Below, piece after piece: positions 11,761-29,892 of a DNA stretch of 61,487 nt. A program made the translations under genes and the position numbers. How positions within the stretch are numbered: the first letter of the stretch is position 1; the number at the start of each line of letters is the position of its first letter. The stretch is from an uncultured Arenicella sp. (lineage in GTDB: Bacteria > Pseudomonadota > Gammaproteobacteria > Arenicellales > Arenicellaceae). Location: the NCBI GenBank assembly GCA_937973905.1, contig CALJJR010000023.1:1-61487 (forward strand), given 5' to 3'. The notes beneath the pieces were generated by a model, which saw only the letters and a list, made by a program, of their open reading frames with translations, was not told the origin of the DNA and searched no databases.

Positions 11761-11777
11761 GCGAGTGATATACTCGC
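11761..11777. promoter_or_regulatory. Inverted repeat with -10-like element upstream of acnD
   Basis: GCGAGT (11761-11766) and ACTCGC (11772-11777) form a perfect 6-bp inverted repeat around GATAT. The sequence TATACT at 11769-11774 inside it resembles a sigma-70 -10 box. No well-spaced -35 is clear. It may be a promoter overlapped by an operator for the acnD-prpF operon. Confidence 0.3.
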
Positions 11778-11821
11778 GCGCTCCATATTTGAGTGCACAC
11801 TTATACGTCCGAGATGCTGTG

Positions 11822-14416: not shown

Positions 14417-14418
14417 TC

Positions 14419-15594
14419 ATGGCTACGACTCCGCAGATCAAAATTCCTGCCACTTATATTCGTGGTGGCACCAGCAAAGGTGTGTTTCTCCGGCTGGAAG
14501 ACTTGCCACAGGCAGCTAAACAACCAGGGCCTGCACGCGATGCCATGTTGTTGCGAATTATCGGCAGCCCCGACCCTTACGGTAAACAAACTGACGGCAT
14601 GGGGGGAGCGACGTCTAGCACGAGTAAGACGGTCATTTTGTCTCGCTCGCAACAAACCGATCATGATGTGGATTATCTCTTTGGTCAGGTCTCTATTGAC
14701 AAGCCTTTTGTTGATTGGAGCGGTAATTGTGGGAATTTGAGTTCCGCAGTAGGTCCGTTTGCGATAAGCAAGGGGTTGATTGATCCTTCGCGAGTGCCGG
14801 AAAATGGTGTGGCCGAGGTTCGTATTTGGCAAGCAAATATTCAAAAAACCATTGTCGCCAAAGTCCCAATTACTAATGGCGAGGTTCAAGAAACCGGTGA
14901 GTTTGAATTAGATGGCGTGACCTTTCCGGCGGCAGAAATCGAGGTGGCGTTCTTAGACCCGGCCGGTGAAGGTAATATGTTTCCTACCGGTAATATTGTT
15001 GATCAGCTTGATGTGCCTGGGGTCGGCGTATTCGACGCAACGCTCATCAACGCCGGTATCCCAACGATTTTTGTAGATGCGGAATCAATCGGATATCTTG
15101 GCACCGAATTGCAGGCTGATATCAACAGCGATGCATCGGCACTAGCAAAGCTAGAAGCGATTCGCGCTGCCGGTGCGTTGAGAATGGGATTGATTATTGA
15201 ATTGAGCGAGGCGGAAACGCGCCAGCATACGCCCAAGATCGCTTGGGTGGCCAGCCCGCAGAGCTACCAGGCCTCCAGCGGCAAGCGTATCGAAGCGGAT
15301 GACGTCGACCTATTGGTGCGAGCCATGTCAATGGGGCAACTTCATCACGCGATGATGGGAACTGCTGCGGTCGCGATTAGCATTGCTTCGGCGATCCCCG
15401 GTACGCTCGTAAATCGTGCTGCTGGCGGCGGCGAGCGCGACTTTGTTAGATTTGGTCATCCCTCAGGCACGCTTAAAGTGGGTGGCGAAGCGATCAAGGT
15501 CAATGATCAGTGGTCGGCGGTTAAAGCGGTTATGAGTCGCAGCGCCAGAGTATTGATGGAAGGGGTTGTGCGGATACCCGGCGATAGTTTTTAA
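14419..15594 (+). CDS. prpF: 2-methylaconitate isomerase PrpF
   Basis: A 391-residue diaminopimelate-epimerase-fold protein that isomerises the 2-methylaconitate made by AcnD so that an aconitase can hydrate it to 2-methylisocitrate. The N-terminal ATYIRGGTSKGVF motif, the GMGGATSSTSKTVI segment, and SGNCGNLSSAVGPFA in the active-site region identify the family. The frame is open from 14323 inside acnD, but the ATG at 14419, two bases after the acnD stop, gives the expected length. A perfect hairpin without a T-run lies downstream. Confidence 0.95.
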   Translation: MATTPQIKIPATYIRGGTSKGVFLRLEDLPQAAKQPGPARDAMLLRIIGSPDPYGKQTDGMGGATSSTSKTVILSRSQQTDHDVDYLFGQVSIDKPFVDWSGNCGNLSSAVGPFAISKGLIDPSRVPENGVAEVRIWQANIQKTIVAKVPITNGEVQETGEFELDGVTFPAAEIEVAFLDPAGEGNMFPTGNIVDQLDVPGVGVFDATLINAGIPTIFVDAESIGYLGTELQADINSDASALAKLEAIRAAGALRMGLIIELSEAETRQHTPKIAWVASPQSYQASSGKRIEADDVDLLVRAMSMGQLHHAMMGTAAVAISIASAIPGTLVNRAAGGGERDFVRFGHPSGTLKVGGEAIKVNDQWSAVKAVMSRSARVLMEGVVRIPGDSF

Positions 15595-15688: not shown

Positions 15689-17365
15689 CTAAAACAACCC
15701 GTCGATTTGACCATCGTCGTTGATACAGATTGCTTCTGCAGAAGGCACTCTAGGCAAGCCTGGCATGGTCATAATTTCGCCACAGATGGCGACAATAAAT
15801 CCGGCGCCAGCCGCCAGCCGCACTTCGCGGATTGGCACAGAGTGGTTGTTAGGTGCGCCGCGCAGATTCGGATCGGTGCTAAAGCTGTATTGCGTCTTGG
15901 CCATACAAATCGGTAGGTTTCCGTATCCTTGCTCTTCCCATTGCTTCAATTGATTGCGGATCTTTTTATCGGCGATTACTTCGTCGGCTCGGTAAATACG
16001 TGTGGCAATCGTTGAGATCTTTTCCATGAGAGGCATTTCATCAGGATAAATCGGCGCGAAAGACGCCATATCTGCATCCGCAATTTCGGCGACTTTGGTG
16101 GCCAGCGCCTTAGAGCCCTCGGAGCCATGCTCCCAATGTTTTGAAACAATCGCCTCAGCGCCTTGTTCGGCCACGTAGTCTTGGATTGCCGCGACTTCAG
16201 CATCGGTGTCGGTGACGAAGTGGTTGATCGCGACCACGACTGGCACTCCAAACGATTTTAAATTTTCGATGTGACGTCCAAGGTTAGGGCAACCAGCTTG
16301 AACGGCTGATACATTTTCTGGCCCCAGGTCTTTCTTCTCGACACCACCGTTCATTTTCATGGCTCTGACTGTGGCAACCAGAACCACAGCGCTCGGAGAA
16401 ATGCCCGCCTTACGACATTTGATATTCAAGAACTTTTCAGCGCCCAGATCAGCGCCGAAACCAGCTTCAGTGACGACGTAGTCGGCGAGTTTTAACGCCG
16501 TGGTGGTGGCAACCACCGAGTTACAGCCGTGTGCAATATTGGCAAATGGGCCGCCATGCACAAAGGCCGGATTATTCTCTAAGGTTTGCACTAAGTTTGG
16601 CTGCATGGCTTGTTGCAGAAGAACCGTCATCGCACCGTCGGCTTTGATGTCTCGGCAGTAAATCGGTGTAAGGTCACGGCGATAGGCCACGATGATGTCG
16701 CCCAATCTTTTTTGTAGGTCTTCCAGATCGTTAGACAAGCATAGAATCGCCATAACCTCGGAGGCAACGGTGATATCAAAACCAGTTTGGCGCGGAATGC
16801 CGTTTGCTACCCCGCCTAAGCTGGTCACCGTGTCGCGGAGCGCGCGATCGTTCATGTCCATAACGCGTCGCCAGGTAACGCGGCGATGATCAATCTCTAG
16901 TTCGTTGCCCCAGTAGATGTGATTGTCAATCATGGCAGACAACAGGTTGTGAGCTGAGGTGATGGCGTGAAAGTCACCGGTGAAATGCAGGTTCATATCC
17001 TCCATAGGGACCACTTGCGCCATGCCGCCGCCCGCAGCACCGCCTTTCATTCCAAAGCAGGGGCCCAGCGAAGCCTCGCGGATGCAGATAGCCGTCTTCT
17101 TGCCAATCGCATTGAGTCCGTCACCCAATCCAACCGTCGTTGTGGTTTTACCTTCGCCAGCCGGAGTTGGATTGATCGCCGTCACGAGGATCAACTTGCC
17201 ATCGGGTTTGCCGCGTTGCTCGGCGATAAAATCTGCACTCACTTTGGCTTTATCGTGGCCGAAAGGCAGCAAGTGCTCGGAAGGTATATCAAGCTTGGCG
17301 CCAATATCTTGAATGGGTTGCTTGTTGGCCTCGCGAGCTATTTCGATATCGGTTTTAAAACTCAT
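15689..17365 (-). CDS. fhs: Formate-tetrahydrofolate ligase
   Basis: Reversibly joins formate and THF to 10-formyl-THF with ATP; in C1-oxidising pathways it runs backwards to make formate and ATP. The 558-residue protein has the P-loop [14 protein letters not shown] at about residues 67-80 and the usual family segments, including [20 protein letters not shown] (quoted in part: [13 protein letters not shown]) and [13 protein letters not shown] near the C-terminus. It is transcribed away from the dimethylglycine-dehydrogenase-like gene. The shared 478-bp divergent region and the position beside a methyl-transfer cluster suggest that it handles C1 units released from methylated amines. folD, the companion enzyme, is not in the window. 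Confidence 0.97.
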
Positions 17366-17843: not shown

Positions 17844-20336
17844 ATGAAAACCCACGTAAAAGCCCTGGTTGTTGGTGGCGGCGCAGTAGGCGCCGGCATT
17901 GCGTATCATCTAGCAAAGTATGGCTGGGAGGACGTTATGTTGGTTGAGCGCGACGAGCTGACATCTGGGTCTACATGGCATGCTGCGGGCCTATTGCCCT
18001 TGTTTAATATGGGTTACGCAACGTCTCATCTACACGATTATTCAGTCGACTTTTATAAAACTCTAGAGCAAGAAACAGGCTTGAACGCTGGGTTTTCGGT
18101 GGTTGGCAATTTACGGATGGCCCAGTCTCAAGACCGGATGGATGAGTTTCTACTCTACGGATCTACCGCGGAAACTGTCGGTATTCCTTATGAGAAGTTG
18201 ACGCCAGCACAGATAAAAGAGCGTTGGCCTTTGATCCACGTTGATGATCTGGTCGGTGCCATTTACCACCCCACTGATGGTTATATCAATCCTGCTGACG
18301 TTACTATGGCGATGGCCAAAGGCGCCCGTCAGCGCGGTGTGACTATCGAACGAAAATGGCAGGTGGATGCCTACCAATGGACTGGCGCTGAATGGCGAGT
18401 CACGCTCACCAAAATGAAGGATCAGGGCGGCAATCTAGTGGTCACAGAAGAACAAGTTGTGGTGACTGCGGAACACGTTGTCACAGCCACAGGCAACCAT
18501 GCCCAGCGTACCGCTCAACTGCTTGGAATTAAGATTCCAGCAATTCCAGTTGAGCACCAATTTATTGTGACTGAGCCGGATGCAGCGTTGCAGGCTTGGC
18601 GAGCTGAGGGTAATCCGGAGCACCCAGTAATTCGTGATGCAGATGCTCAGTCTTACGTGCGTGAGGAGCGAGGCGGCTGGATACTCGGAGTGTACGAGCG
18701 TGGAGCCCCAGCGCGTTTCGAATATGGCGTACCAGATGAGTTCCGCGCCGATCTTTTCCCGCTCGATTTAGAGCGTATCGAAGAGCAGTACATGGCGATG
18801 ATTCATCGCATGCCATCCTGTGAGCAAAGCGGTTTGAAAGACGACTATAACGGCCCCATCTGCTACACGCCAGATGGCAATCCTCTAGTAGGTCCAGCCC
18901 CTGGACTGCGGAATATGTGGCTAGCTGAAGGTTTCAGTTTTGGTATCACTGCTGCCGGTGGGGTAGGGAATTATCTGGCGCAAATGATGGTCGAGGGTGA
19001 GGCGGAAATCGATATGGCTTCGCTTGATCCAAAACGGTATGGCGACTGGATGACCACTGAATATGGTGCCAGAAAGAACGAAGAATGCTATGAGCACGTT
19101 TATGTGCTGCATCATCCCGATGAAGAACGTGAGGCATGTCGTCCGCTGCGTACTTCACCTGCCTACGATCGACAAAAGGCAGCCGGGGCGCAATTTGGTC
19201 AGGTCAACGGTTGGGAGAGACCTAACTACTATGCACCTGAAGGATTTGATGATCACGCTGCTCGCTCATTTCGAAGAGGAGCATGGTGGCAGTACGCGGT
19301 AGCAGAGGCCAAAGCGATTCGCGACAACGTTGGCCTGATCGATGCAACGGCATTCACCAAGCATGTAGTAAAGGGCCCGGGTGCTACGGCGTTTCTGGAT
19401 TGGTTCACTTGCAACAAACTACCTAGTGTGGGACGCATCAATCTCACCTACGCATTGACCGCAAAAGGTACTACACGTACTGAATACACGATCGTGCGAC
19501 GGACAGAAGAGGAATATTATCTAGTATCCGCGGGTGCTTGGACGGCCTATGACGCTGACTTCTTGCGTAAAGCCGCCGCCGATAGAGCCGACCAGTTTGG
19601 TTACGTCGAGATTCAGGATGTCACAACCCAATGGGGCGTGTTTGCGATCGCCGGCCCTAATGCTCGTGCGGTTTTGAGCAAGGTTATAAAGGACGCCGAT
19701 CCAGCCTCAGCTTTATCGAACAAGCGCTTCCCTTGGTTGTCGGCGCGCGATATTGAATTGGGCATGTGCCCGGTGCGAGCCATAAGGGTCGCTTATACCG
19801 GTGAACTTGGCTGGGAATTGCACCATCCGATTGAAATGCAAAACTACTTGTATGACTTGTTGATTGCTGCCGGAGAAGAGTTTCAGATGAAGCTGGTTGG
19901 TGCTCGTGCACAAAACTGGTTGCGGCAAGAGAAGTCATACCGTGCTTTCGGTACCGAATTGGGTCGCGACGCGACCCCGCAAGAAGCCGATCTGCCTCGA
20001 TTTATCGACTTGTCTAAAGAGTTTCATGGTAAAGCCGAGATGGTGGCCACCGGTGTGCGCTGGAAATGCGTGACGCTGCTAATCGATGGTCCTGCTGACG
20101 CGGATCCTTGGGGGCGAGAAGCGCTCTATGATGGTGACGAGAAAGTTGGAAGGCTGACCTCGGGCGGCTATTCAGTCGCGTTTGAAAAGAGTATTGGGCT
20201 TGGCTATGTGACGCCAGAGGTGGCTGAAGTAGGCCAAAAACTGAAGGTCAGAATGCAAGGAGAATTGTGGGATGCAGAAATTGTCGTCGACAGTCCTTAC
20301 GACCCCAAGAACGAAACGATTAGAAAAGACGGTTGA
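17844..20336 (+). CDS. Dimethylglycine dehydrogenase-like FAD/GcvT fusion flavoenzyme
   Basis: An 830-residue two-part enzyme. The N-terminal half is a DAO-type FAD domain with the dinucleotide-binding GGGAVGAGIAYHL at residues 11-23. The GSTWHAAGL motif follows, with H46 at the position of the covalent histidyl-FAD link known from dimethylglycine dehydrogenase. The C-terminal half, from about residue 450, is a GcvT-like folate-binding domain plus GCV_T C-terminal domain (ELGWELHHP, then VGRLTSGGYSVAF). The family oxidatively demethylates dimethylglycine or sarcosine and passes the methylene group to THF. Start at the ATG at 17844, preceded by an AAGAGGAG site; the frame is open to 17727 but lacks support there. 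It leads the same-strand cluster with the corrinoid methyltransferase genes, fitting a role in removing the second and/or third methyl group of glycine betaine. Substrate is inferred. Confidence 0.88.
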   Translation: MKTHVKALVVGGGAVGAGIAYHLAKYGWEDVMLVERDELTSGSTWHAAGLLPLFNMGYATSHLHDYSVDFYKTLEQETGLNAGFSVVGNLRMAQSQDRMDEFLLYGSTAETVGIPYEKLTPAQIKERWPLIHVDDLVGAIYHPTDGYINPADVTMAMAKGARQRGVTIERKWQVDAYQWTGAEWRVTLTKMKDQGGNLVVTEEQVVVTAEHVVTATGNHAQRTAQLLGIKIPAIPVEHQFIVTEPDAALQAWRAEGNPEHPVIRDADAQSYVREERGGWILGVYERGAPARFEYGVPDEFRADLFPLDLERIEEQYMAMIHRMPSCEQSGLKDDYNGPICYTPDGNPLVGPAPGLRNMWLAEGFSFGITAAGGVGNYLAQMMVEGEAEIDMASLDPKRYGDWMTTEYGARKNEECYEHVYVLHHPDEEREACRPLRTSPAYDRQKAAGAQFGQVNGWERPNYYAPEGFDDHAARSFRRGAWWQYAVAEAKAIRDNVGLIDATAFTKHVVKGPGATAFLDWFTCNKLPSVGRINLTYALTAKGTTRTEYTIVRRTEEEYYLVSAGAWTAYDADFLRKAAADRADQFGYVEIQDVTTQWGVFAIAGPNARAVLSKVIKDADPASALSNKRFPWLSARDIELGMCPVRAIRVAYTGELGWELHHPIEMQNYLYDLLIAAGEEFQMKLVGARAQNWLRQEKSYRAFGTELGRDATPQEADLPRFIDLSKEFHGKAEMVATGVRWKCVTLLIDGPADADPWGREALYDGDEKVGRLTSGGYSVAFEKSIGLGYVTPEVAEVGQKLKVRMQGELWDAEIVVDSPYDPKNETIRKDG

Positions 20337-20486: not shown

Positions 20487-21173
20487 ATGAGTGATGACCA
20501 AGATTTTGATCTAAAAGATCTCGACGACGGTGAATTGGTGGAGCAAATTCAGGACGATCTTTATGATGGTCTTGAAGGCGAAGTCGCTGAAGGGGTCGAA
20601 ATACTTTTAGATCGTGGCCAAGACGCGAACGATGTGCTGGGCAATGCCTTGGTGGGCGGCATGAAAATTGTCGGCGAAGATTTTCGCGATGGAATTTTGT
20701 TCGTGCCTGAAGTGCTTAAATGTGCTGCGGCGATGAAAGCCGGGATGGTGCTGTTACGACCAATACTCGCAAATAGCAGCATTGATATCTCACTCGGTAA
20801 GTTCGTAATTGGAACCGTGAAAGGGGATATTCACGATATTGGTAAAAACCTAGTCGGCATGATGTTGGAGGGCGCGGGTTTTGAAGTGATTGATTTAGGA
20901 ATCAATAACCCAGTTGAAAACTACCTCGAAGCCTGCGATGAGCATAAGCCGGTAATCATGGGTATGTCAGCATTGCTCACCACGACCATGCCTTATATGG
21001 GAGTTGTGATCGAAGAGTTCGACAAGCGCGGGATGATGGATGACATTCACATCATGGTGGGTGGCGCGCCGTTGAATCAAGAATTCGCTGACGCGATTGG
21101 TGCACCTGCCTACGGTCGCGACGCTGCTAGAAGTTCCGAAATGGCAGCCGATTACGCGCGCAGCTTACAGTAA
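20487..21173 (+). CDS. Corrinoid (B12-binding) methyl-carrier protein, MttC/MtgC-like
   Basis: A 228-residue cobalamin carrier that shuttles a methyl group between an MttB-family methyltransferase and a THF methyltransferase. The N-terminal helical cap domain is followed by a Rossmann B12 domain with the base-off ligand motif D114-I-H116-D-I-G119 and the downstream MGMSALLTTTM and MVGGAPLN segments. An in-frame GTG at 20472 exists, but the ATG at 20487, spaced behind GGAG, is better. The first 36 residues contain 15 acidic and one basic residue, an unusually acidic extension. Its partners in this cluster carry Arg-rich tails, which may matter for docking (see findings). It lies 150 bp after the flavoenzyme and 28 bp before the oxygenase gene. 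Confidence 0.94.
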   Translation: MSDDQDFDLKDLDDGELVEQIQDDLYDGLEGEVAEGVEILLDRGQDANDVLGNALVGGMKIVGEDFRDGILFVPEVLKCAAAMKAGMVLLRPILANSSIDISLGKFVIGTVKGDIHDIGKNLVGMMLEGAGFEVIDLGINNPVENYLEACDEHKPVIMGMSALLTTTMPYMGVVIEEFDKRGMMDDIHIMVGGAPLNQEFADAIGAPAYGRDAARSSEMAADYARSLQ

Positions 21174-21201: not shown

Positions 21202-22317
21202 ATGTTGACGCTCGCTAAAAACGCTCTAACCATAGAGTTAGACAAAGCTGCCACTTTCCACTACGTGTGGCTACGCGACAATTGTCCATGCGCCAAATGC
21301 GTTCATCCGGATACGAAGGAACGCATTCTGGTTACACACACAATTGCTGACGATATCGCTCCGGAGTCCGCTGAATTGCGCGACAACGAATTACTTGTCA
21401 ACTGGAACCAAGCTCAACATCAGAGCCGCTACTCAATAGACTGGCTGGCGGCGCACAATTACAGTGATCACGCATTTGAATCTGACTCGGCTATTGGTTC
21501 CTCGGTTCTTTGGGGCAAAGAACTGCAAGATCACATTCCAACTTTTTCCTATCAAGACCTGCGCAATGATGATCTTGTGTTGTTGGAGTGGTGTGAGGCT
21601 CTGAGAGACTATGGGCTTTCGATAATTCGCGGCGCACCGCTAGAAGAGGGCGAGATTGAACGTTTTGCTGAACATGTCGCGGTAGTGCGCGAGACCATTT
21701 ACGATCGACTACACAACGTTCGTGCCACACCAGGCGAATACAATGCTTATAACGTGGCGTCTACGACTCTTGAACTTAAACCGCATACCGACATGCCGAA
21801 TTACAATAATCCGCCCGGCGTGCAAATGTTTCACTTTCTGGTCAATGAGAGTGAAGGTGGCCACAGCACAGCGGTTGACGGCTTCAATGTTGCCAAGCAA
21901 TTATTGGAACAAGACCCTGATGCCTACCGAGTGCTGAGCCAAACACCGGTCCACTTCAAAATGTTCAGCGCTCGAGGCGACATAGAGTCGCGCAACCCCC
22001 TACTAACACTTGATACCGATCAGAGATTGAAGGTTTTTCGTTATTCTAATCAACTGGCGCAACCCGCCAACTTGTCGATTGATGATATGGAAGCTTTCTA
22101 TAGCGCCTATCGAAAGCTTGGCCGCCTAGTTGAAGCACCCGAAAACATGGTTGAATTTCGGCTTAACACGGGCGATATGATGGCGACGAATAACCTTAGG
22201 GTAATGCACGGTAGAAAAGCATTCGATCCAAGCACGGGCGACCGACACTTGCAATTATCGTATATGGATATGGACGACGTTTTAAGTCGCATTCGAATGA
22301 TTAGAAAAGCGCTATGA
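21202..22317 (+). CDS. Fe(II)/2-oxoglutarate oxygenase, TmpA-like (gamma-butyrobetaine-hydroxylase family)
   Basis: A 371-residue protein. The N-terminal DUF971-like zinc domain has C28-P-C30-A-K-C33. The catalytic TauD/BBOX jelly roll carries iron ligands H195-T-D197 and H336 (in VMHGRKAF). The family hydroxylates trimethylammonium compounds next to the quaternary nitrogen chain; members include gamma-butyrobetaine hydroxylase, trimethyllysine hydroxylase and TmpA. TmpA hydroxylates 2-(trimethylammonio)ethylphosphonate at C1. The four-base overlap (ATGA) with an HD-domain oxygenase gene is the tmpA-tmpB arrangement and is the main reason to prefer TmpA over carnitine synthesis. The frame is open back to 21097 inside the corrinoid gene; the ATG at 21202 matches the family N-terminus. 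Substrate assignment is inference. Confidence 0.85.
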   Translation: MLTLAKNALTIELDKAATFHYVWLRDNCPCAKCVHPDTKERILVTHTIADDIAPESAELRDNELLVNWNQAQHQSRYSIDWLAAHNYSDHAFESDSAIGSSVLWGKELQDHIPTFSYQDLRNDDLVLLEWCEALRDYGLSIIRGAPLEEGEIERFAEHVAVVRETIYDRLHNVRATPGEYNAYNVASTTLELKPHTDMPNYNNPPGVQMFHFLVNESEGGHSTAVDGFNVAKQLLEQDPDAYRVLSQTPVHFKMFSARGDIESRNPLLTLDTDQRLKVFRYSNQLAQPANLSIDDMEAFYSAYRKLGRLVEAPENMVEFRLNTGDMMATNNLRVMHGRKAFDPSTGDRHLQLSYMDMDDVLSRIRMIRKAL

Positions 22318-22895
22318 AAAAAGTAGCGTTTACTAAAATGGAGGACGGTACAGCGGCCGAATACGTGTTCCTAGATAAATTGGAAGATGAGTTCAAAGCT
22401 GCTCTGCCGAATAAGTTGCTGGCTCAACTTGAGGGTTTGGAATACTCACTTTCAGGTTATCAGATTTCGCGACTTGAACATTGTTTGCAGGCCGCGACTC
22501 GTGCACACCGTGCGGGCGAAAAAAGAGAATGGGTTATGGCCGCTCTACTGCATGATATCGGTGATGAGCTAGCGCCTTATTCGCACAGTGAAATGGCGGC
22601 GGCGATTCTGCGCCCTTTTGTGAGCGACGAAGTGTATTGGGTGGTAAAGCATCACGGTTTATTCCAAATGTACTATTACGCGCATCACTCTGGCGGTGAT
22701 CGGCATGCGCGAGACATGTTTAAGAATCATAAGTATTTTGATTCCGCAGTAAGGTTTTGTCATGACTATGATCAAAACTGCTTCGACCCTGGTTACCAAT
22801 CCGAGCCACTGGCTTTTTTTGCGCCGATGGTAAAAGAGTTTTTTAGTCAATCCAGGGTAGATGACCCGGAGCATGAGGCACGTTATGGCGGGTAA
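22314..22895 (+). CDS. HD-domain mixed-valent diiron oxygenase, TmpB/PhnZ-like
   Basis: A 193-residue HD-domain protein whose pattern matches the C-P bond-cleaving oxygenase PhnZ and its relative TmpB rather than an HD phosphohydrolase. Likely diiron ligands are H56 (in LEHCLQA), H80-D81 (LLHDIGD), H91 (SHSEMAA), H114 (KHHGLFQ) and an aspartate near 151-153 (CHDYD). The spacing resembles PhnZ at the N-terminal sites. PhnZ splits 1-hydroxy-2-aminoethylphosphonate to glycine and phosphate; TmpB splits the trimethylated analogue to glycine betaine and phosphate. Translation is coupled to the oxygenase gene upstream. Downstream corrinoid genes would consume the betaine. The alternative is an uncharacterised HD enzyme on another hydroxylated quaternary amine. 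Confidence 0.8.
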   Translation: MKKVAFTKMEDGTAAEYVFLDKLEDEFKAALPNKLLAQLEGLEYSLSGYQISRLEHCLQAATRAHRAGEKREWVMAALLHDIGDELAPYSHSEMAAAILRPFVSDEVYWVVKHHGLFQMYYYAHHSGGDRHARDMFKNHKYFDSAVRFCHDYDQNCFDPGYQSEPLAFFAPMVKEFFSQSRVDDPEHEARYGG

Positions 22896-23499
22896 ACGGT
22901 TAGTTTTAGGCTGTGGTGCTTTAGCTCACGACATGATTGCGTTGGTGAAAAATAACGAGGCGCTCAAGGCGGTAATCGACATTCGATGTTTGCCTGCAAA
23001 ATTACATAACACACCGCAATTGATCGCCGGTGAGGTCGATAAGTACCTCCAGCAACATGGCCACAATTATGCGGATATTTTTGTTGCTTATGGTGATTGT
23101 GGAACAGCTGGTGAGTTGGATAGGGTGCTCGATAAATATCAAGCTCAGCGTCTTCCGGGTGCGCATTGCTATGAGTTTTTTGCTGGCTCCGATCATTACC
23201 AAGGACTGATTGATGAAGAAATCGGTAGCTTTTTCCTGACCGACTATTTAGTACGGCATTTTGAAAGATTGGTGATCGAAGGGCTCGGCTTGGACCGTTA
23301 TCCAGAACTCTTTGATGATTATTTTAAGCATTACAAACGCTTGGTTTATTTGGCTCAGACTGAGAATGCAGAGCTGCGGGATAAGGCACGACGACACGCA
23401 GAAGCGTTTGGGCTTGATTATGAGTATCGAATGGTGGGCATTGCCGGGCTACAACCGTTAGCGGGTGCGCCATTTCGAATAGAGGTGAATCATGTATAG
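22885..23499 (+). CDS. DUF1638 protein
   Basis: About 204 residues of the DUF1638 family, recognised by the N-terminal RLVLGCGALAHDM motif and the internal YGDCGTAGELD segment with conserved cysteines. The biochemical function is not established to my knowledge. Homologues recur beside MttB-family methyltransferases and corrinoid proteins in Archaea, clostridia and marine Proteobacteria, which points to a role in corrinoid methyl transfer or cofactor handling. The start at the ATG at 22885 overlaps the previous gene by 11 bases and has GAGG upstream; an ATG at 22861 is also in frame. The stop overlaps the next gene by eight bases, so the three genes are translationally linked. Confidence 0.8.
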   Translation: MAGKRLVLGCGALAHDMIALVKNNEALKAVIDIRCLPAKLHNTPQLIAGEVDKYLQQHGHNYADIFVAYGDCGTAGELDRVLDKYQAQRLPGAHCYEFFAGSDHYQGLIDEEIGSFFLTDYLVRHFERLVIEGLGLDRYPELFDDYFKHYKRLVYLAQTENAELRDKARRHAEAFGLDYEYRMVGIAGLQPLAGAPFRIEVNHV

Positions 23500-23980
23500 T
23501 CTGCGCCGCTTCGCTACTCGACATTCACGTGCTTTCGAGGCTTTTTACAATTTTGCTGAGCCCGTCATCCTACCGATAATGAGTGGGCTGAGTAAGCTTT
23601 CAGGTGGGCGGCTGGATGCGCCCATGACGTGGGTTGAAAAACAGGCCAAGGGCGCGCTATTCGATTGCCAAATGTGTGGCAATTGTGTGCTCTCCAGCAC
23701 TGGCATGACGTGCCCAATGAATTGTCCAAAAACCATCCGTAACGGCCCCTGTGGCGGCGTGCGCGAAAACGGTAATTGTGAAGTTAAACCAGAAATGAGA
23801 TGTGTTTGGGTCGAGGCCTGGGATGGCGCATCGCGCATGCGAGGCGGCGACAAAATTCATACGGTACAGTTCGCTAGTGACCGGTCTAAGCGTGGCACAA
23901 GTGCTTGGCTCAATATACTCAAGCAACGCGAGTTGGAAGCAGCCGGCCGCGTAAAATCTGCGCCTCCGCGAACTCAATAG
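23492..23980 (+). CDS. metV: MetV-like methylenetetrahydrofolate reductase partner (MTHFR_C domain)
   Basis: A 162-residue cysteine-rich protein of the MTHFR C-terminal/virulence-factor family. Eight cysteines cluster at C59, C62, C65, C74, C78, C87, C96 and C104 (CQMCGNC, CPMNCPK, GPCGG), suited to a metal or Fe-S site. In acetogens MetV forms a complex with a short MetF to make a methylene-THF reductase of different electron-donor use. Here a short MetF follows 9 bp later, supporting such a MetVF complex. In this cluster it would run in the oxidative direction, turning the methyl-THF derived from betaine into methylene-THF. That direction is inferred. Confidence 0.85.
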   Translation: MYSLRRFATRHSRAFEAFYNFAEPVILPIMSGLSKLSGGRLDAPMTWVEKQAKGALFDCQMCGNCVLSSTGMTCPMNCPKTIRNGPCGGVRENGNCEVKPEMRCVWVEAWDGASRMRGGDKIHTVQFASDRSKRGTSAWLNILKQRELEAAGRVKSAPPRTQ

Positions 23981-23989
23981 GCTAGCGAG

Positions 23990-25003
23990 ATGAACGCACC
24001 AGATCATCATCCCTTTGTGGAAGATCCCGGCAGCCCACTGCCGCCCCTGGAGGGTCATGTTTCCCTTGGCCGTTTTGAACGAGTTTTACGTGCAGGGCAA
24101 TTCGCTGTGACGAGTGAAATCGCTCCACCCGATTCTGCCGATGCTGAAGAAGTGTATCGCCGCGCAGCGTTGTTTGACGGAGCTATTGATGCCATTAACG
24201 CGACCGACGGTTCGGGCGCAAACTGCCATATGTCCAGCGTCGCTGTGTGTGCTTTGTTGTCGCACATTGGTTACTCGCCAATATTGCAAATTTCTTGCCG
24301 TGATAAAAACCGCATTGCTATCCAAGGAGACGTTTTGGGCGCTGCGGCAATGGGGGTCTGCAACGTGCTCGCCCTAACCGGTGATGACGTTTCAGCAGGC
24401 GATCACCCAGAGGCAAAACCGGTATTTGACCTAGATAGTATTTCGCTCCTTTCTACCATTAAAACAATGCGCGACGAGTCGAAATTTTTGAGTGGGCGAA
24501 AACTGGATATGCCGCCAAAGATATTCGCAGGATCCTCAATCAATCCGTTTGTGCCTCCGGTTGAAAATCGGGTGGATCAACTCAAGAAGAAGATTGATGC
24601 GGGTGCTGAATTTATTCAAAGCCAATATTGTTTTGATCTAACAATTCTCAAAGACATGATGGCGCGAGCGGTTGATGCGGGCTTAACGGAAAGAGCATTT
24701 ATTTTGCCGGGAGTCGGCACTTTAGCCTCCGCGCGTACAGCTCGATGGTTACGCACCAATGTTCCGGGTGTTTATATCCCTGACGAGATTATTTTGCGCT
24801 TAGAGGGCGCAGAAAATCAGAAGCGTGAAGGTCAAAAAATCTGTGTTGAGCTCATGCAGCAAGTAAAAGAAATTGATGGCGTACATGGCGTTCACATCAT
24901 GGCCTATAAGCAAGAAGAATTCGTACGTGAAATGGTGGCGGAGTCGGGTGTGCTGGATGATCGAGAAGCCTGGGCACCCGAAGACACCGGCGCTATTGCG
25001 TAG
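23990..25003 (+). CDS. metF: Methylenetetrahydrofolate reductase MetF-like
   Basis: A 337-residue TIM-barrel flavoprotein of the MTHFR family. Family features include the N-terminal AVTSEIAPPDSADAEEV strand-loop with its catalytic-type glutamate, ILQISCRDKNR, the VLALTGDDVSAGDH flavin loop and GAEFIQSQYCFDL. It has an N-terminal extension of about 30 residues (proline-rich) before the barrel. Paired with MetV directly upstream, it interconverts 5-methyl-THF and 5,10-methylene-THF. The position inside the corrinoid cluster suggests a dedicated catabolic copy separate from the biosynthetic MetF used for methionine. Electron acceptor unknown. Confidence 0.9.
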   Translation: MNAPDHHPFVEDPGSPLPPLEGHVSLGRFERVLRAGQFAVTSEIAPPDSADAEEVYRRAALFDGAIDAINATDGSGANCHMSSVAVCALLSHIGYSPILQISCRDKNRIAIQGDVLGAAAMGVCNVLALTGDDVSAGDHPEAKPVFDLDSISLLSTIKTMRDESKFLSGRKLDMPPKIFAGSSINPFVPPVENRVDQLKKKIDAGAEFIQSQYCFDLTILKDMMARAVDAGLTERAFILPGVGTLASARTARWLRTNVPGVYIPDEIILRLEGAENQKREGQKICVELMQQVKEIDGVHGVHIMAYKQEEFVREMVAESGVLDDREAWAPEDTGAIA

Positions 25004-25054: not shown

Positions 25055-25972
25055 ATGACACACACTAGAATTACCTCGCCTAAGCAAGAAGTCATCATCG
25101 GGTTTGATCGACCGTTCACCATGATTGGAGAACGAATAAATCCAACAGGTCGAAAAATTCTGGCCGCTGAAATGAAGGAAGGCGACTACAGTCGGGTCGA
25201 GGCAGACGCCATTGCCCAAGTGCAAGCTGGCGCGCAGATGCTCGATGTTAATGCAGGCATACCCCTTGCTGACGAGCCAGCAATTTTGGCTGAGACCATT
25301 CGTCGGGTGCAAGCCGTGGTGGATGTGCCTCTTTGTATTGATTCATCAATTATTGAAGCGCTCGAGGCCGGTCTTGAAGTTTACCAAGGTCGCCCATTGG
25401 TCAATTCAACCACTGCAGAAGAAGAAGTGATGGAGCGCGTCTTGCCGCTAGTGAAAAAGTACGACGCGGCGGTGGTGGCGATATCCAACGATGAGACCGG
25501 CATTTCTGAAGACCCAGACGTGCGTTTTGAAATCGCCAAACGTATCGTAGAACGTGCCCAAGACTATGGCATAAAGCCAGAGGACGTTGTAGTAGACCCG
25601 CTGGTGATGCCGATCGGCGCAATTGGTCAAGCGGGTCAGCAAGTCTTTCAGTTAGTCAGACGCCTGCGTGATGAACTCAAAGTAAACACAACGTGCGGCG
25701 CTTCTAATATTAGTTTTGGTATCCCCAATCGACATGGAATCAACAATGCGTTCCTGCCAATGGCAATTGCCGCTGGCATGACGTCGGCGATTGTGAATCC
25801 GCTGCATGCGGGCTTGGTTCAATCCGTTCATGCAGCGGACGTGCTCGCCGGCACCGACAGCAATTGTGAGAATTGGATTAATACTTATCGGGAACCACCT
25901 AAAGAGGGTGAATCGGCGGCTGGAGGGCGTGGCAACCGTGAAGGGCGCCGCAATCGTCGTCGTCGAGCATAG
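25055..25972 (+). CDS. Methyltetrahydrofolate:corrinoid methyltransferase, MtgA/AcsE-like
   Basis: A 305-residue pterin-binding TIM barrel that moves methyl groups between the corrinoid protein and THF. Visible motifs are the pterin-pocket TMIGERINPTGRK, QMLDVNAGIPLADE, CIDSS, NSTTAEEEVM, VVDPLVMPIG and TCGASNISFGIPNR with the usual active-site Asn/Gly pattern. Length fits the stand-alone AcsE/MtgA type, not full MetH. The C-terminal 16 residues form a Gly/Arg-rich tail ending RRNRRRRA that is not part of the barrel. Similar tails occur on the activator and the MttB-like protein nearby. Starts at the ATG at 25055 after a 51-bp gap. Confidence 0.92.
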   Translation: MTHTRITSPKQEVIIGFDRPFTMIGERINPTGRKILAAEMKEGDYSRVEADAIAQVQAGAQMLDVNAGIPLADEPAILAETIRRVQAVVDVPLCIDSSIIEALEAGLEVYQGRPLVNSTTAEEEVMERVLPLVKKYDAAVVAISNDETGISEDPDVRFEIAKRIVERAQDYGIKPEDVVVDPLVMPIGAIGQAGQQVFQLVRRLRDELKVNTTCGASNISFGIPNRHGINNAFLPMAIAAGMTSAIVNPLHAGLVQSVHAADVLAGTDSNCENWINTYREPPKEGESAAGGRGNREGRRNRRRRA

Positions 25973-25985
25973 TGAGAATTTAACA

Positions 25986-26375
25986 ATGACGGTTCGAAGT
26001 GGATCCTGCGTTTGCGGAAAGGTGCGGTATACGGCCTCCAAGGTAAAACCGATCTGGTATTGTCATTGTGAACAATGTCGGCGCATGACCGGACACTATA
26101 TGGCGGCCTCGCAAGTTGATCTGACCGATATCGAGATTACTGGTGCGCCAAAATGGTATTACGTTAATCAACGTTCGAAGCACGGGTTTTGTCCGGATTG
26201 TGGTTCGCAGATGTTTTGGCGCAATGAAGAAAACCCGTATATGAGCATCACCGGCGGCAGCATGGATAACACTCATGATTTGCCCAATAAGGGGCATATT
26301 TTTGTCGCCGAAAAAGGTCACTACTATCAGCTACCTGATTCAGAAGTTCAGTGTGACCAATGGACGGAAGACTAG
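25986..26375 (+). CDS. GFA/CENP-V family zinc protein
   Basis: A 129-residue protein of the GFA fold, named for glutathione-dependent formaldehyde-activating enzyme. Zinc-site cysteines are seen at C8, C10, C26, C28, C31, C68 and C71 (CVCGKVRY, YCHCEQCRRMTG, GFCPDCGSQMFW). True formaldehyde-activating function is doubtful for much of the family. Here, though, it is embedded between methyl-transfer genes and downstream of a flavoenzyme that can release formaldehyde, so handling of formaldehyde or another thiol adduct is plausible. The ATG at 25986, 13 bp after the previous stop, is chosen over the long open frame starting at 25806, which overlaps the upstream gene. Confidence 0.85.
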   Translation: MTVRSGSCVCGKVRYTASKVKPIWYCHCEQCRRMTGHYMAASQVDLTDIEITGAPKWYYVNQRSKHGFCPDCGSQMFWRNEENPYMSITGGSMDNTHDLPNKGHIFVAEKGHYYQLPDSEVQCDQWTED

Positions 26376-26381
26376 TTAGCC

Positions 26382-28310
26382 ATGAGTAAAGTTGTTTTCA
26401 CACCGGCCGGACTAGCCCGCGAGACCGAACCGCAAACCACGGTGCTGGCTGCGGCGTTTGACGCTGGTGTGCAGATCCGTTCCTTATGTGGGGGTAATGG
26501 TAATTGTCGTCAATGTTGGGTGAGAATCATTGAAGGTTCTCACAGCAAGCACGGCATCGAGGTAGGGCCCGAATCAGCTTCGCCGATGACCGACATCGAG
26601 CAACGCATGACCAGCCGCATCAAACGCTATCAGGGTATGCGTTTAGCCTGCCGCACTAAAGTGTGTGGTGACTTGTTGGTTGACGTTCCTGAGGCAAGTC
26701 AGGAGCATCTGACCAATATTAGTAAAAGCAACGTCGCGCGTGATTTTATAATTCATCCAAGCATCCAACTCGTTGATCTCACTCTGGCCGAAGCTACGAT
26801 GGATGACAATCCATCGGCCAGCGAAAATATCTCCGCGCGGCTCGCCGAACAGGGCGTGGAAGCAAGGCTAAATTTTCATTGTTTAGCTGGTCTGCAATCG
26901 GCCATCGAAGAATCCAAAGGTTGCCTGACCGTCGCGGTTAGGGATGCTCGAGAGGTTGTCGCAATATATCCCCCGGAAACCAAGCGTGTAATCGGTGGCG
27001 CGGTTGATATCGGCTCGACCACCATTGCACTGTATATTCATGATCTGCACACCGGTGAGCTGCTTTACGAAGCGTCAGCGATGAATCCGCAAATTCGCTT
27101 TGGTGAAGATCTCATGAGCCGTGTCTCTTATGTGATGATGAATAAAGGTGGCGATGCAGAAATGACCAAAGCGGTGCGGGATAAGTTGCTAGAGATGGTC
27201 ACGGCAGCTTGTAAAAAACTCGAACTCGCGGCGGAAAGGTTGTTGGAGCTGGTGCTGGTTGGTAATCCGATTATGCATCACTTGTTTTTCGGGATATCAC
27301 CGGTTCCACTCGGCCAAGCCCCCTTCACCGTCGCATCGCGAGAGCTTCAAACCGTGCTTGCCGTAGACCTTGGCTTGGAGATCAACCCAACAACGAGAAT
27401 CACGTTTTTACCGCTCATTGCAGGTCATGTTGGTGCCGATACCGCCGCCGCCTATTTGAGCGAAATAGAGACCATGCAAAGTAAGACCGCATTGCTGGTC
27501 GACATTGGTACCAATGCTGAAATCATGTTGGCAAAAAATGGCCGCGTATACGCGACCTCTTCACCAACCGGCCCAGCGTTTGAGGGTGCAGAGATCAGCG
27601 CCGGAGTGCGTGCGTCGCATGGCGCAATTGAGCGCGTTAGAATTGACCCTGAAACTCTCGACGTGAGTTATAAATTGATTGGCGTGGACAGTTGGTCGGA
27701 TACCGAAGAATTTGCCTCCACTCGACAACGGGCGATTGGAATCTGTGGCTCAGGCATCATCGAAGTCATGGTTTGTTTGGCACAAGCTGGTCTCATTGAT
27801 CAAGGCGGCTTGTTTGTACAAGATCGGGCCCCGCACTTATTCGATACAGTGGATAACACTACGCGGTTTTTGCTGGTGGAGCAGGGCGAACATTCGATTT
27901 ATGTGGAACAGACCGATGTGCGCTCGATACAATTGGCTAAAGCGGCCTTGTATGCGGGTGTGCAACTGCTCATGGATTACCTTGAATGCGACTCCGTTGA
28001 AACGGTGCTGTTAGCTGGCGCCTTTGGATCGCATCTCGACCCCGATTACGTGGCCGATTTGGATTTAGTGCCGCATGCGCGAAAAGATCAGATTCGATCG
28101 GTCGGCAATGCAGCAGGGATCGGCGCAACTAAGGTGCTTCTCGACACCCGGGAACGAGAAAGAATTATTACAGAGGTTGGAAAAGTTCAAAAAATTGAAA
28201 GCGCGAATGAACCGCGCTTTCAAGAATATTTTGTTGAAGGCATGAAGTTTTCTGTGTCACCGGTTGCCGGGCAGAAATCACAGCGCAATCGTCGCCATAG
28301 GCGTTCATAA
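26382..28310 (+). CDS. Corrinoid-activating [2Fe-2S]/ASKHA ATPase (RACo/RamA-like)
   Basis: A 642-residue reductive activator that uses ATP and a low-potential electron to return oxidised Co(II) corrinoid protein to active Co(I). The N-terminal plant-type ferredoxin domain has C36, C42, C45 and C90 (CGGNGNCRQC and LACRTKV). The C-terminal ASKHA/DUF4445 ATPase domain shows the GGAVDIGSTTIALYI phosphate loop, LLVDIGTNAEIML, and GICGSGIIEVM and LAGAFGSH motifs. It follows the GFA gene by 6 bp. The last dozen residues are Arg-rich (QRNRRHRRS). In an oxic marine organism this repair protein would be essential, because cobalamin is easily oxidised. Confidence 0.94.
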   Translation: MSKVVFTPAGLARETEPQTTVLAAAFDAGVQIRSLCGGNGNCRQCWVRIIEGSHSKHGIEVGPESASPMTDIEQRMTSRIKRYQGMRLACRTKVCGDLLVDVPEASQEHLTNISKSNVARDFIIHPSIQLVDLTLAEATMDDNPSASENISARLAEQGVEARLNFHCLAGLQSAIEESKGCLTVAVRDAREVVAIYPPETKRVIGGAVDIGSTTIALYIHDLHTGELLYEASAMNPQIRFGEDLMSRVSYVMMNKGGDAEMTKAVRDKLLEMVTAACKKLELAAERLLELVLVGNPIMHHLFFGISPVPLGQAPFTVASRELQTVLAVDLGLEINPTTRITFLPLIAGHVGADTAAAYLSEIETMQSKTALLVDIGTNAEIMLAKNGRVYATSSPTGPAFEGAEISAGVRASHGAIERVRIDPETLDVSYKLIGVDSWSDTEEFASTRQRAIGICGSGIIEVMVCLAQAGLIDQGGLFVQDRAPHLFDTVDNTTRFLLVEQGEHSIYVEQTDVRSIQLAKAALYAGVQLLMDYLECDSVETVLLAGAFGSHLDPDYVADLDLVPHARKDQIRSVGNAAGIGATKVLLDTRERERIITEVGKVQKIESANEPRFQEYFVEGMKFSVSPVAGQKSQRNRRHRRS

Positions 28311-28362
28311 CCTTTGGCGCACGAGTTCGCACAAGAACAATTACAGAGGAGTCAAAACCATA

Positions 28363-29892
28363 ATGGCTAGAGAACGAAGAAATAGAAGAAGACGCGGTGG
28401 TGATCAGGGCGTGGACAACAGGCCCAAAGCCCCAGCGTTTATTAAACGTAAAATTCCTCATTTTGAAATACTCGATGAAGAAGCGCTGCAGACGATTGAA
28501 GGTAACGCTGAAACCATTCTTGAAGAAATTGGGATCGATTTCCTGGAAGACCCAGAATCGATTGAGATATTTAAAGAAGCAGGCGCTGATATCAAGGGTG
28601 AGCGAGTTCATTTCCCGCGTGGGATGTGCCGTGAAATTATCCAAAAAACAGCTCCTCGCGAATTCACCCAGCACGCGCGCAACCCTGCTCGCAGCGTGGT
28701 CATTGGAGGTAATAATTTAGTCTTGGTGCCGGCTTATGGGCCGCCCTTCGTGCATGATCTCGATAACGGCCGTCGCTACGCAACCATCGAAGACTTCCGC
28801 AACTTCGTCAAGCTGGCGTATATGTCAGACAATCTTCACCATTCTGGAGGCACGGTTTGTGAGCCTGTTGACCTGCCAGTCAATAAACGCCACTACGATA
28901 TGGTTTACAGCCACATCAAATACTCTGACAAAGCGTTTATGGGGTCGGTGACTCACCCAATGCGAGCGCAAGATTCAGTAGATATGGCGAAGATCGTATT
29001 CGGTGACGAATTTGTCGATCAAAATTGCGTCATGGTTAACCTTATTAATGCGAATTCACCAATGACCTTTGATGCCACGATGCTGGGCGCATTGAAAGTT
29101 TACGCACGCAATAATCAGGCAACGATGGTATCGCCGTTTATCGTGGCGGGCGCCATGTCGCCGGTATCGGCTGCCGGTGTTGCCGCGCAGAGCTTTGCCG
29201 AAGGACTCGCGGGCATGACCTTGGTTCAGTTGCTGCGCCCTGGTGCGCCGATGATCTATGGTAATTTTGTGAGTTCGATGTCGATGCAATCCGGCGCGCC
29301 AACTTTTGGTTCTCCTGAGGCAGGACAAGTTATGAATATTGGCGGCGCACTAGCACGTCGTTTAGGCGTACCTTTTCGCAGTGGGGGTGGTTTCACTTCC
29401 TCAAAGCTACCAGATGCTCAAGCTGCTTATGAAGCTGCCAATACTTTGAATGCAACATTGATGGCGGGCGTTAATTTTGCTCTGCATACTGCGGGCTGGT
29501 TGGAAGGTGGTCTGGCCATGGGTTATGAGAAATTCGTCATGGACGCAGACCAAGCTGGCATGATTCGCATTATGGCAGAGGGCGTTGATATGTCTGAAAA
29601 TGGGCAAGCAATGAGCGCCTTACGAGAGGTGGGACCTGGGCAACATTTTCTGGGGTGCGAGCACACGCAGGCAAATTTCAAAACAGCGTTCTACATGTCT
29701 AACGTGAGCGATAACAACAGTTATGAGCAGTGGGTTGAAGATGGCAGTCAAGATACGGCGACTCGTGCTAATGCTCGATTTAAAGAAATGTTGGCCGCGT
29801 ATCAAGCGCCCGAGCTGGATCCCGCGATCGATGAAGCATTGCTGGCGTTTATGGAGCAACGCAAAGCGAGCTTTCCAGATTCCAATATTTAG
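28363..29892 (+). CDS. MttB-superfamily methylamine methyltransferase without pyrrolysine (glycine betaine type)
   Basis: A 509-residue member of the trimethylamine methyltransferase (MttB) superfamily. Recognised by the EGNAETILEEIGIDFLEDPE N-terminal helix (quoted in part), NLVLVPAYGPPFVHDLDNG, HHSGGTVCEP, QSFAEGLAGMTLVQLLRPG (in part) and the C-terminal GPGQHFLGCEHTQANF. The frame has no internal amber codon, so it lacks pyrrolysine, as in MtgB, which demethylates glycine betaine to dimethylglycine. The gene neighbourhood with a dimethylglycine-dehydrogenase-like enzyme supports the same substrate; carnitine, proline betaine or butyrobetaine are alternatives within the superfamily. Start at the ATG at 28363 behind AGAGGA. 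Residues 2-12 are strongly basic (ARERRNRRRRG). Confidence 0.92.
   Translation: MARERRNRRRRGGDQGVDNRPKAPAFIKRKIPHFEILDEEALQTIEGNAETILEEIGIDFLEDPESIEIFKEAGADIKGERVHFPRGMCREIIQKTAPREFTQHARNPARSVVIGGNNLVLVPAYGPPFVHDLDNGRRYATIEDFRNFVKLAYMSDNLHHSGGTVCEPVDLPVNKRHYDMVYSHIKYSDKAFMGSVTHPMRAQDSVDMAKIVFGDEFVDQNCVMVNLINANSPMTFDATMLGALKVYARNNQATMVSPFIVAGAMSPVSAAGVAAQSFAEGLAGMTLVQLLRPGAPMIYGNFVSSMSMQSGAPTFGSPEAGQVMNIGGALARRLGVPFRSGGGFTSSKLPDAQAAYEAANTLNATLMAGVNFALHTAGWLEGGLAMGYEKFVMDADQAGMIRIMAEGVDMSENGQAMSALREVGPGQHFLGCEHTQANFKTAFYMSNVSDNNSYEQWVEDGSQDTATRANARFKEMLAAYQAPELDPAIDEALLAFMEQRKASFPDSNI

Follow-up and report, generated by a model that had tools for sequence, protein, structure and literature searches.

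A 2-oxoglutarate oxygenase/HD-domain gene pair distinct from TmpA/TmpB within a putative betaine demethylation cluster of an uncultured Arenicella

We analysed a 61,487-nt stretch of DNA (GenBank CALJJR010000023.1, contig G000:C23; hereafter the window) from an uncultured Arenicella sp., whose draft genome comprises 3.38 Mb in 231 contigs and is 89% complete. On its forward strand, the window encodes a BBOX-family Fe(II)/2-oxoglutarate (2OG) oxygenase (21202..22317; 371 amino acids with TauD and GBBH-like_N domains) followed by an HD-domain protein of an unnamed family (22314..22895; 193 amino acids), the stop codon of the former being coupled to the start codon of the latter by an ATGA overlap. 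Alignment places the oxygenase ligands H195, D197 and H336 at H202, D204 and H347 of human BBOX, and an N-terminal cysteine motif (Cys28/Cys30/Cys33) is present as in BBOX. The HD protein carries six ligands of a dinuclear site, H56, H80, D81, H91, H114 and D153, which are invariant in 32/32 aligned family members, along with R53, D84 and Q118. A first-pass annotation made from the sequence alone had called both open reading frames (ORFs), their coupling and the 2OG ligands correctly and had listed all HD ligands save D153. Its description of the ligand spacing as PhnZ-like holds for the first two intervals only: those of the window protein (24, 1, 10, 23, 39) depart after the HD dyad from the 24, 1, 21, 24 and 57 of PhnZ (ligand numbers from PMC7916636).

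The first-pass annotation took the pair to be of the TmpA/TmpB kind, which would convert 2-(trimethylammonio)ethylphosphonate (TMAEP), a phosphonolipid headgroup, into phosphate and glycine betaine. The two folds and their order are indeed the same, and glycine betaine would be consumed on the spot by the genes described below; the family models, however, do not recognize either protein. Against NCBIfam, the oxygenase scored 313.2 bits for TmpA (NF049936; cut-off 400), 323.9 for BBOX (TIGR02409; cut-off 414.75) and 228 for trimethyllysine dioxygenase (cut-off 268). Four BBOX-family genes from the same order, used as controls, reached 430-588 bits for TmpA and all adjoin TmpB-type HD genes, which argues that the TmpA cut-off separates as it should.

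The residues around the active site also set the oxygenase apart from TmpA. TmpA is described as binding the phosphonate via N187, N287 and R288, and BBOX the corresponding group via N191 and N293 (PMC9296572). At the TmpA positions the window oxygenase has N184, N283 and Q284, the asparagine pair being kept and the arginine lost, and Q284 recurs in all ten members of its clade (the window protein, six from genus-mates and three from Cocleimonas). At the positions of the aromatic cage, which we take to be Y177, W181, Y194 and Y366 in human BBOX, it has Y167, H171, S187 and Y354; two of the four aromatics are gone. The BBOX cage is described with Pseudomonas numbering in PMC4736438. Within the window clade, the histidine is present in 10/10 members and the serine in 9/10 (glutamine in one), and among aligned rows an aromatic residue at BBOX positions 181 and 194 occurs in none of seven from the window clade as against 22 of 23 others, the single exception being the HD-paired protein of genome G368. 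A pocket that keeps the asparagine pair but has lost two cage residues suggests a carboxylate substrate with a cationic end other than a caged trimethylammonium group, with the proviso that new contacts, for example through Y183, could possibly replace those that were lost.

In trees of 30 aligned BBOX-family rows, a selection from the matches that omits the nearest match outside the window clade (G059:C110; 37% identity, one internal stop), the window clade was monophyletic at 100/100 on a long stem (1.07-1.25), and the TmpA clade (7 rows) closed without it, at 100/98 and, in a second tree set, 100/100. The window oxygenase fell on the BBOX side at 54/79 and joined human BBOX1 at 80/66. A sister relationship to TmpA was nevertheless not rejected by approximately unbiased tests (p-AU 0.22 with the HD-paired rows grouped, 0.19 without them in the data); the lower value of 0.0038 belongs to a TmpA grouping from which the HD-paired rows were excluded, and rejects that grouping only, not TmpA sisterhood itself. 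The AlphaFold model obtained for the oxygenase was of insufficient quality for use (predicted local distance difference test score, pLDDT, 60.7). Score, clade placement, the arginine-to-glutamine exchange and cage loss all speak against TmpA identity.

Could the oxygenase instead be a plain gamma-butyrobetaine hydroxylase for carnitine synthesis, with an unrelated HD neighbour? It shares 39% identity with a protein from Caballeronia that scores above the BBOX cut-off and 30% with a TmpA of the order, and besides the domain pair it retains the cysteine motif and both carboxylate-side asparagines of BBOX. We consider this quite improbable, as the score falls short (324 vs 415 bits), His and Ser stand in for two of the four cage residues, the clade is separate with its long stem, and pairing with the HD gene recurs.

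The HD protein is likewise remote from its phosphonate-cleaving counterparts. It scored 31.6 bits for TmpB (NF049941; cut-off 300), 39.6 for Phn-HD (TIGR03276; cut-off 214.6) and 25.1 for PhnZ1, in each case over short stretches; two TmpB-like controls, at 239 and 271 bits, also stayed below 300 yet matched over nearly full length. Branches supported at 100/100 part six TmpB rows from the HD family in trees that lack PhnZ itself, for which the sequence used was a fragment that does not reach R158. All six TmpB rows have the tyrosine and glutamate of the YxxE loop, a methionine three residues ahead of the first ligand histidine, and His, Lys and Arg at the positions of PhnZ H62, K108 and R158; the PhnZ fragment reads Tyr, Glu, Gln, His and Lys, and the window protein L46, Y49, R53, D84, Q118 and H150. 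The quartet E27/H62/K108/R158 of PhnZ and TmpB is thus Y/D/Q/H in the window protein. K108 presumably has a functional role in PhnZ too. For the others, E27 is described as holding the amino group, H62 the hydroxyl group, and R158 as part of a proton chain (PMC7916636), while the YxxE loop (Y24/E27) is described in PMC8177086. According to PMC11203657, an organophosphonate dioxygenase is better recognized by another histidine, the fifth one conserved in the TIGR03276 clade; we take it to be H62, which would make it an aspartate in the window protein. These exchanges characterize the whole HD family: R53, D84 and Q118 are present in 69/69 rows (67 loci), the glutamate position holds Tyr or Phe and never Glu, position 150 is never Arg, and the YxxE tyrosine position is Tyr in 11/69. 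That alignment drops two divergent rows; a 39-row alignment that keeps them has R53 and D84 in 37/39 each, the two divergent rows carrying Phe at the D84 position. The scores, the clade, the four exchanges and the absence of a YxxE loop all speak against TmpB identity.

R53 raises the question of whether the HD protein is an oxygenase at all. It might be of the phosphohydrolase type, the oxygenase then acting alone, e.g. as a butyrobetaine-like hydroxylase, and the pairing reflecting a later hydrolytic step or metabolite clean-up. An arginine three residues ahead of the first histidine is typical of HD phosphohydrolases, and the diphosphatase YqeK has the same motif of six ligands (PMC8177086); PhnZ has glutamine and TmpB methionine at this place. 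Moreover, the ligand motif is said not to be absolutely reliable for oxygenases (PMC11203657), and most members of the HD family lack a BBOX-family neighbour (see below). On the other side stand the fold and the recurrent coupling to 2OG oxygenases. An AlphaFold model of the HD protein (pLDDT 81.5, built from 10 sequences), searched with Foldseek against PDB structures, returned PhnZ (TM score 0.61-0.63; best match) and TmpB (0.58-0.62) as its ten best matches; myo-inositol oxygenase (MIOX) came next without significance (TM 0.55, E 0.16), and HD hydrolases trailed well behind (TM 0.31, E 0.6 or worse). Pfam MIOX did not match the window protein at E 0.001, whereas two relatives came near its threshold (18.6 and 23.8 vs 25 bits). 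Because the fold is nearest to PhnZ and TmpB, ahead of the hydrolases, we favour, without certainty, an oxygenase with another substrate than theirs and regard the phosphohydrolase alternative as unlikely.

In the window's own draft genome, no TmpA exceeded the cut-off, and the one PhnD-family stretch is marginal (27.7 bits, cut-off 27) under a model that matches in 12/14 control genomes and hence is not telling. No convincing phosphonate uptake gene was found in this incomplete genome, the searches not extending to C-P lyase or further phosphonate genes. Pairs that do carry the diagnostic residues exist elsewhere in the order, and a TmpA-type pair from Phyllobacterium (plasmid set, L145) keeps R288 and the TmpB residues, unlike the window pair. 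The fold of the HD protein and the possible sisterhood of the oxygenase to TmpA speak for conversion of TMAEP to phosphate and glycine betaine; given the score, clade and residue evidence, we hold it to be very unlikely, and most likely the enzymes are not TmpA and TmpB. Of the first-pass annotation, the 2OG-hydroxylase/HD architecture stands; neither the TmpA/TmpB identity nor TMAEP as substrate is supported, and the phosphonate-specific residues are absent. That annotation had also named a contrary phylogeny, with the oxygenase among butyrobetaine hydroxylases and the HD protein among phosphohydrolases: the former placement is weakly supported with TmpA sisterhood not rejected, and the latter disagrees with a fold nearest PhnZ/TmpB. 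A side observation concerns locus L035:7789-10173 (G024:C14), where a TmpA-type gene (430 bits, above cut-off) and a TmpB-like gene lie ~80 bases from a solitary member of the HD family of the window on the opposite strand, i.e. two HD kinds side by side.

What the pair adjoins in the window is a demethylation cluster. Upstream lie genes for a formate-tetrahydrofolate (THF) ligase (15689..17365, reverse strand) and, on the forward strand like all that follow, a DMGDH-like flavoprotein (17844..20336, ORF listed from TTG 17727; DAO, FAO_M and GCV_T domains) and a corrinoid protein (20487..21173, ORF listed from GTG 20472) nearest to MtgC (194.6 vs cut-off 370). The name DMGDH is one we take from the domain order of the flavoprotein, as no NCBIfam model scored above cut-off. 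Downstream, a DUF1638 gene (22885..23499, ORF listed from ATG 22861) overlaps the HD stop codon and is followed by genes for a DUF5981 protein of the MTHFR C-terminal type (23492..23980), methylene-THF reductase (MTHFR; 23990..25003), a methyl-THF:corrinoid methyltransferase (25055..25972; 380.8 bits, cut-off 259), a GFA-domain protein (25980..26375), a RACo-type corrinoid activase (26382..28310) and an MttB-superfamily methyltransferase (28264..29892) that has no in-frame stop, hence lacks pyrrolysine, and is related to MtgB. The best match of this MttB homologue is 4YYC (716 bits), labelled only 'putative trimethylamine methyltransferase'; the MtgB-type structures 2QNE and 9YCE scored 446-448 bits, vs 124 for the trimethylamine methyltransferase 7XCL. 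An MttB homologue without pyrrolysine thus stands together with corrinoid and methyl-THF partners, the make-up of an MtgB-type cluster, with a corrinoid protein that scores below the MtgC cut-offs. In view of the MtgB-like match and the DMGDH-like neighbour, glycine betaine is likely the substrate of this cluster, and the first-pass placement of the pair among demethylation genes is borne out by the MttB homologue, corrinoid, DMGDH-like and methyl-THF genes.

Glycine betaine demethylation by MtgBCD is described in marine bacteria (PMC12478193), and the window cluster shares with that system the MttB-type methyltransferase, corrinoid protein, methyl-THF enzyme and dimethylglycine step; the part of that account available to us mentions no 2OG/HD pair, whereas the window cluster has one. 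A literature search for such a pair in betaine or carnitine catabolism turned up none, which is no proof of absence.

Within the genus, the window-type oxygenase is encoded in 7/18 genomes and the window-type HD protein in 8/18. Since the HD gene adjoins the oxygenase gene in 7/7 of the former, the pairing is not due to chance. In six of these seven the pair neighbours the cluster's corrinoid gene, with MttB on the same contig in five of the six (the G016 contig is just 4.2 kb). In the seventh, G008, a short contig carries the pair together with a DMGDH-like gene and what we take to be a small methyltransferase gene, the MttB cluster being on another contig. An assembly artefact is ruled out, as five genus-mates also have the pair next to the corrinoid gene, in two gene orders. 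In genome G006, which keeps the corrinoid/MttB cluster, both pair genes survive only as decayed fragments with in-frame stops, immediately upstream of the corrinoid gene (L124, C1:90372-90772); this natural loss of the pair alone suggests that the pair is accessory to the demethylation genes. In Cocleimonas, the two genes are adjacent in 3/3 loci, two of which (L085, L089) lie outside any MttB cluster; at the third (L093) its neighbours are a distant MttB homologue (353 bits, cut-off 525), two DMGDH-like genes and a LysR-type gene. When 84,980 genomes were scanned with two short peptide patterns, which may miss distant relatives, nine loci with close oxygenase relatives came up, in records assigned to Arenicella, Cocleimonas or plainly Gammaproteobacteria/Proteobacteria, which marks the source of the window as gammaproteobacterial and probably marine; this form of the pair was found only in Arenicella/Cocleimonas.

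The HD family itself is widespread, with a match to the window protein in 47/61 relatives and a profile match in 59/398 genomes across the phylum. A BBOX-family gene adjoins an HD-family gene in four of these 398 proteobacterial genomes (the window's, G207, G368 and G435), i.e. for 4/63 HD and 4/41 BBOX-family matches, against ~0.02 adjacent pairs expected by a hand estimate over the 22 genomes with both families; a Pseudomonas aeruginosa plasmid provides a fifth case. The HD family occurs in 22/33 genomes with BBOX-family genes and 37/365 without (Fisher p = 7e-13), a test confounded by the relatedness of the genomes. In the four cases other than the window, the oxygenase partners group in a clade next to TmpA, separate from that of the window (96/94; with a long branch for the G368 row), and the HD proteins paired with them fall at two or three positions in the HD tree; the two genes thus came together, or were exchanged, on more than one occasion.

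Three of these four pairs adjoin choline-, carnitine- or betaine-type catabolic genes, an association that does not prove a substrate. On the plasmid (L134), a choline-binding protein (458 vs 379) and a choline dehydrogenase (PRK02106; 756 vs 605) score above their cut-offs, a betA model (674 vs 732) and an aldehyde dehydrogenase against the betaine aldehyde dehydrogenase (BADH) model (425 vs 669) below them. The neighbours in G368 (L152) are an OpuAC protein (Pfam; 257 vs 379 for the choline-binding model), a BKACE protein (Pfam), a carnitine dehydrogenase (413.7 vs 414), and a second BBOX-like gene and a GbdR-like regulator, both below cut-off. In G207 (L151) they comprise a GbcA-like Rieske protein (422 vs 670), sarcosine-oxidase-like flavoproteins below cut-off, a GMC protein (579 vs 605 for choline dehydrogenase) and a glutathione-dependent formaldehyde dehydrogenase above cut-off.

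Building on what was observed, namely the pairing of the genes and its recurrence, the metal ligands, the fold of the HD protein, the separation from TmpA/TmpB and the setting, we propose that the pair forms a two-enzyme catabolic module for a methylated amine other than TMAEP that feeds the demethylation genes (probability about 0.4). The BBOX-family oxygenase would hydroxylate a carboxylate-bearing methylated amine, and the dinuclear HD protein would then cleave the hydroxylated product, both the order of steps and the oxygenase chemistry being predicted. The resulting glycine betaine, dimethylglycine or close relative would presumably pass to the MtgB-like, corrinoid and DMGDH-like genes. 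Our confidence in the general module is tentative and that in any single substrate low. In this form, the first-pass idea that the pair serves methylated-amine catabolism survives, through the betaine-gene setting and through similar pairs beside quaternary-amine genes elsewhere.

Several observations weigh against the proposed module. Loss of the cage argues against a trimethylammonium substrate and weakens glycine betaine as the product; R53 is a mark of HD phosphohydrolases; and descent of the oxygenase clade as sister to TmpA is compatible with both AU tests. As to context, 59/63 HD-family matches have no BBOX-family neighbour, and some family members adjoin housekeeping genes, which from their sequences look to us like gyrB, uvrD/ilvE or hut genes. 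G435 has no clear amine-catabolic neighbours save a regulator weakly like GbdR, nor do L085 and L089 have any. Finally, in G010 (87% complete) the cluster is still flanked by the HD gene but the window-type oxygenase gene is missing there, and the HD protein may therefore have a job of its own. One member of the family, at L075:2016-6310 (G028:C165), follows genes that we take to be hutI, hutC and hutU and overlaps the hutU-like gene by 1 base.

The changed cage also bears on a different order of events, in which the pair would come in at a downstream stage: its substrate would be dimethylglycine, sarcosine or some other amine that is already partly demethylated, and the two enzymes would form an oxidative branch next to the DMGDH-like one. 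His and Ser in place of the trimethylammonium cage would suit an N-H-bearing group, the pair comes after the corrinoid gene, and the Cocleimonas L093 pair adjoins two DMGDH-like genes. The cluster, however, already has a DMGDH-like gene, and other pairs adjoin choline- or betaine-type binding proteins, i.e. the entry side; we judge this downstream role distinctly unlikely.

A more specific form of the two-enzyme module is rather doubtful, yet worth spelling out. According to PMC10574752, the 2OG/HD oxygenase pathway is known in four versions, and phosphonates are the substrates of all of them. Here, a new 2OG-hydroxylase/HD-oxygenase pathway, the first without a phosphonate, would have the HD enzyme oxidatively cut the C-C bond next to the hydroxylation, so that a butyrobetaine-like substrate might yield a glycine-betaine-like acid and glycolate; different BBOX-like clades in several lineages would have recruited the same HD family to feed betaine demethylation. 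Of the known systems, TmpA/TmpB of Leisingera caerulea shares the BBOX-family oxygenase beside a dinuclear HD protein of similar fold, but the window proteins lie far below the cut-offs, outside both clades, and lack the phosphonate-binding residues and YxxE loop. PhnY/PhnZ shares the hydroxylase-oxygenase arrangement, the top Foldseek match and six iron ligands, and differs in the E27, H62, K108 and R158 positions and in part of the ligand spacing. MIOX offers the HD fold, the ligand motif and the precedent of an HD oxygenase without a YxxE loop, but is structurally a weak match with another partner and setting.

If the module is real, 2OG/HD tandem chemistry would reach beyond phosphorus acquisition into methylated-amine catabolism, and the pair would give the first clue to the function of a widespread unnamed HD family, whose matches to the phosphonate oxygenase models of NCBIfam are only weak. 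It also cautions that architecture alone is insufficient to name such pairs TmpA/TmpB.

Some further features of the cluster and its genome deserve mention. The DUF1638 gene accompanies the corrinoid cluster in the window and in all eight genus-mates whose cluster was examined. Adjoining the cluster are aconitase-family and PrpF genes (window 11765-15594), a pairing that resembles what we take to be a methylcitrate-type route. The genome has a second MttB-superfamily gene, 53% identical and cut by a contig edge (L066:5572-6149, C179), and relatives in the order hold up to 19 genes of this superfamily. A second BBOX-like gene (L065:8051-12362, C109; 30% identity) is flanked on one side by a gene for a BCCT transporter and on the other by one for a sulfatase whose C-terminal domain is of the choline-sulfatase kind, and possibly belongs to another quaternary-amine route.

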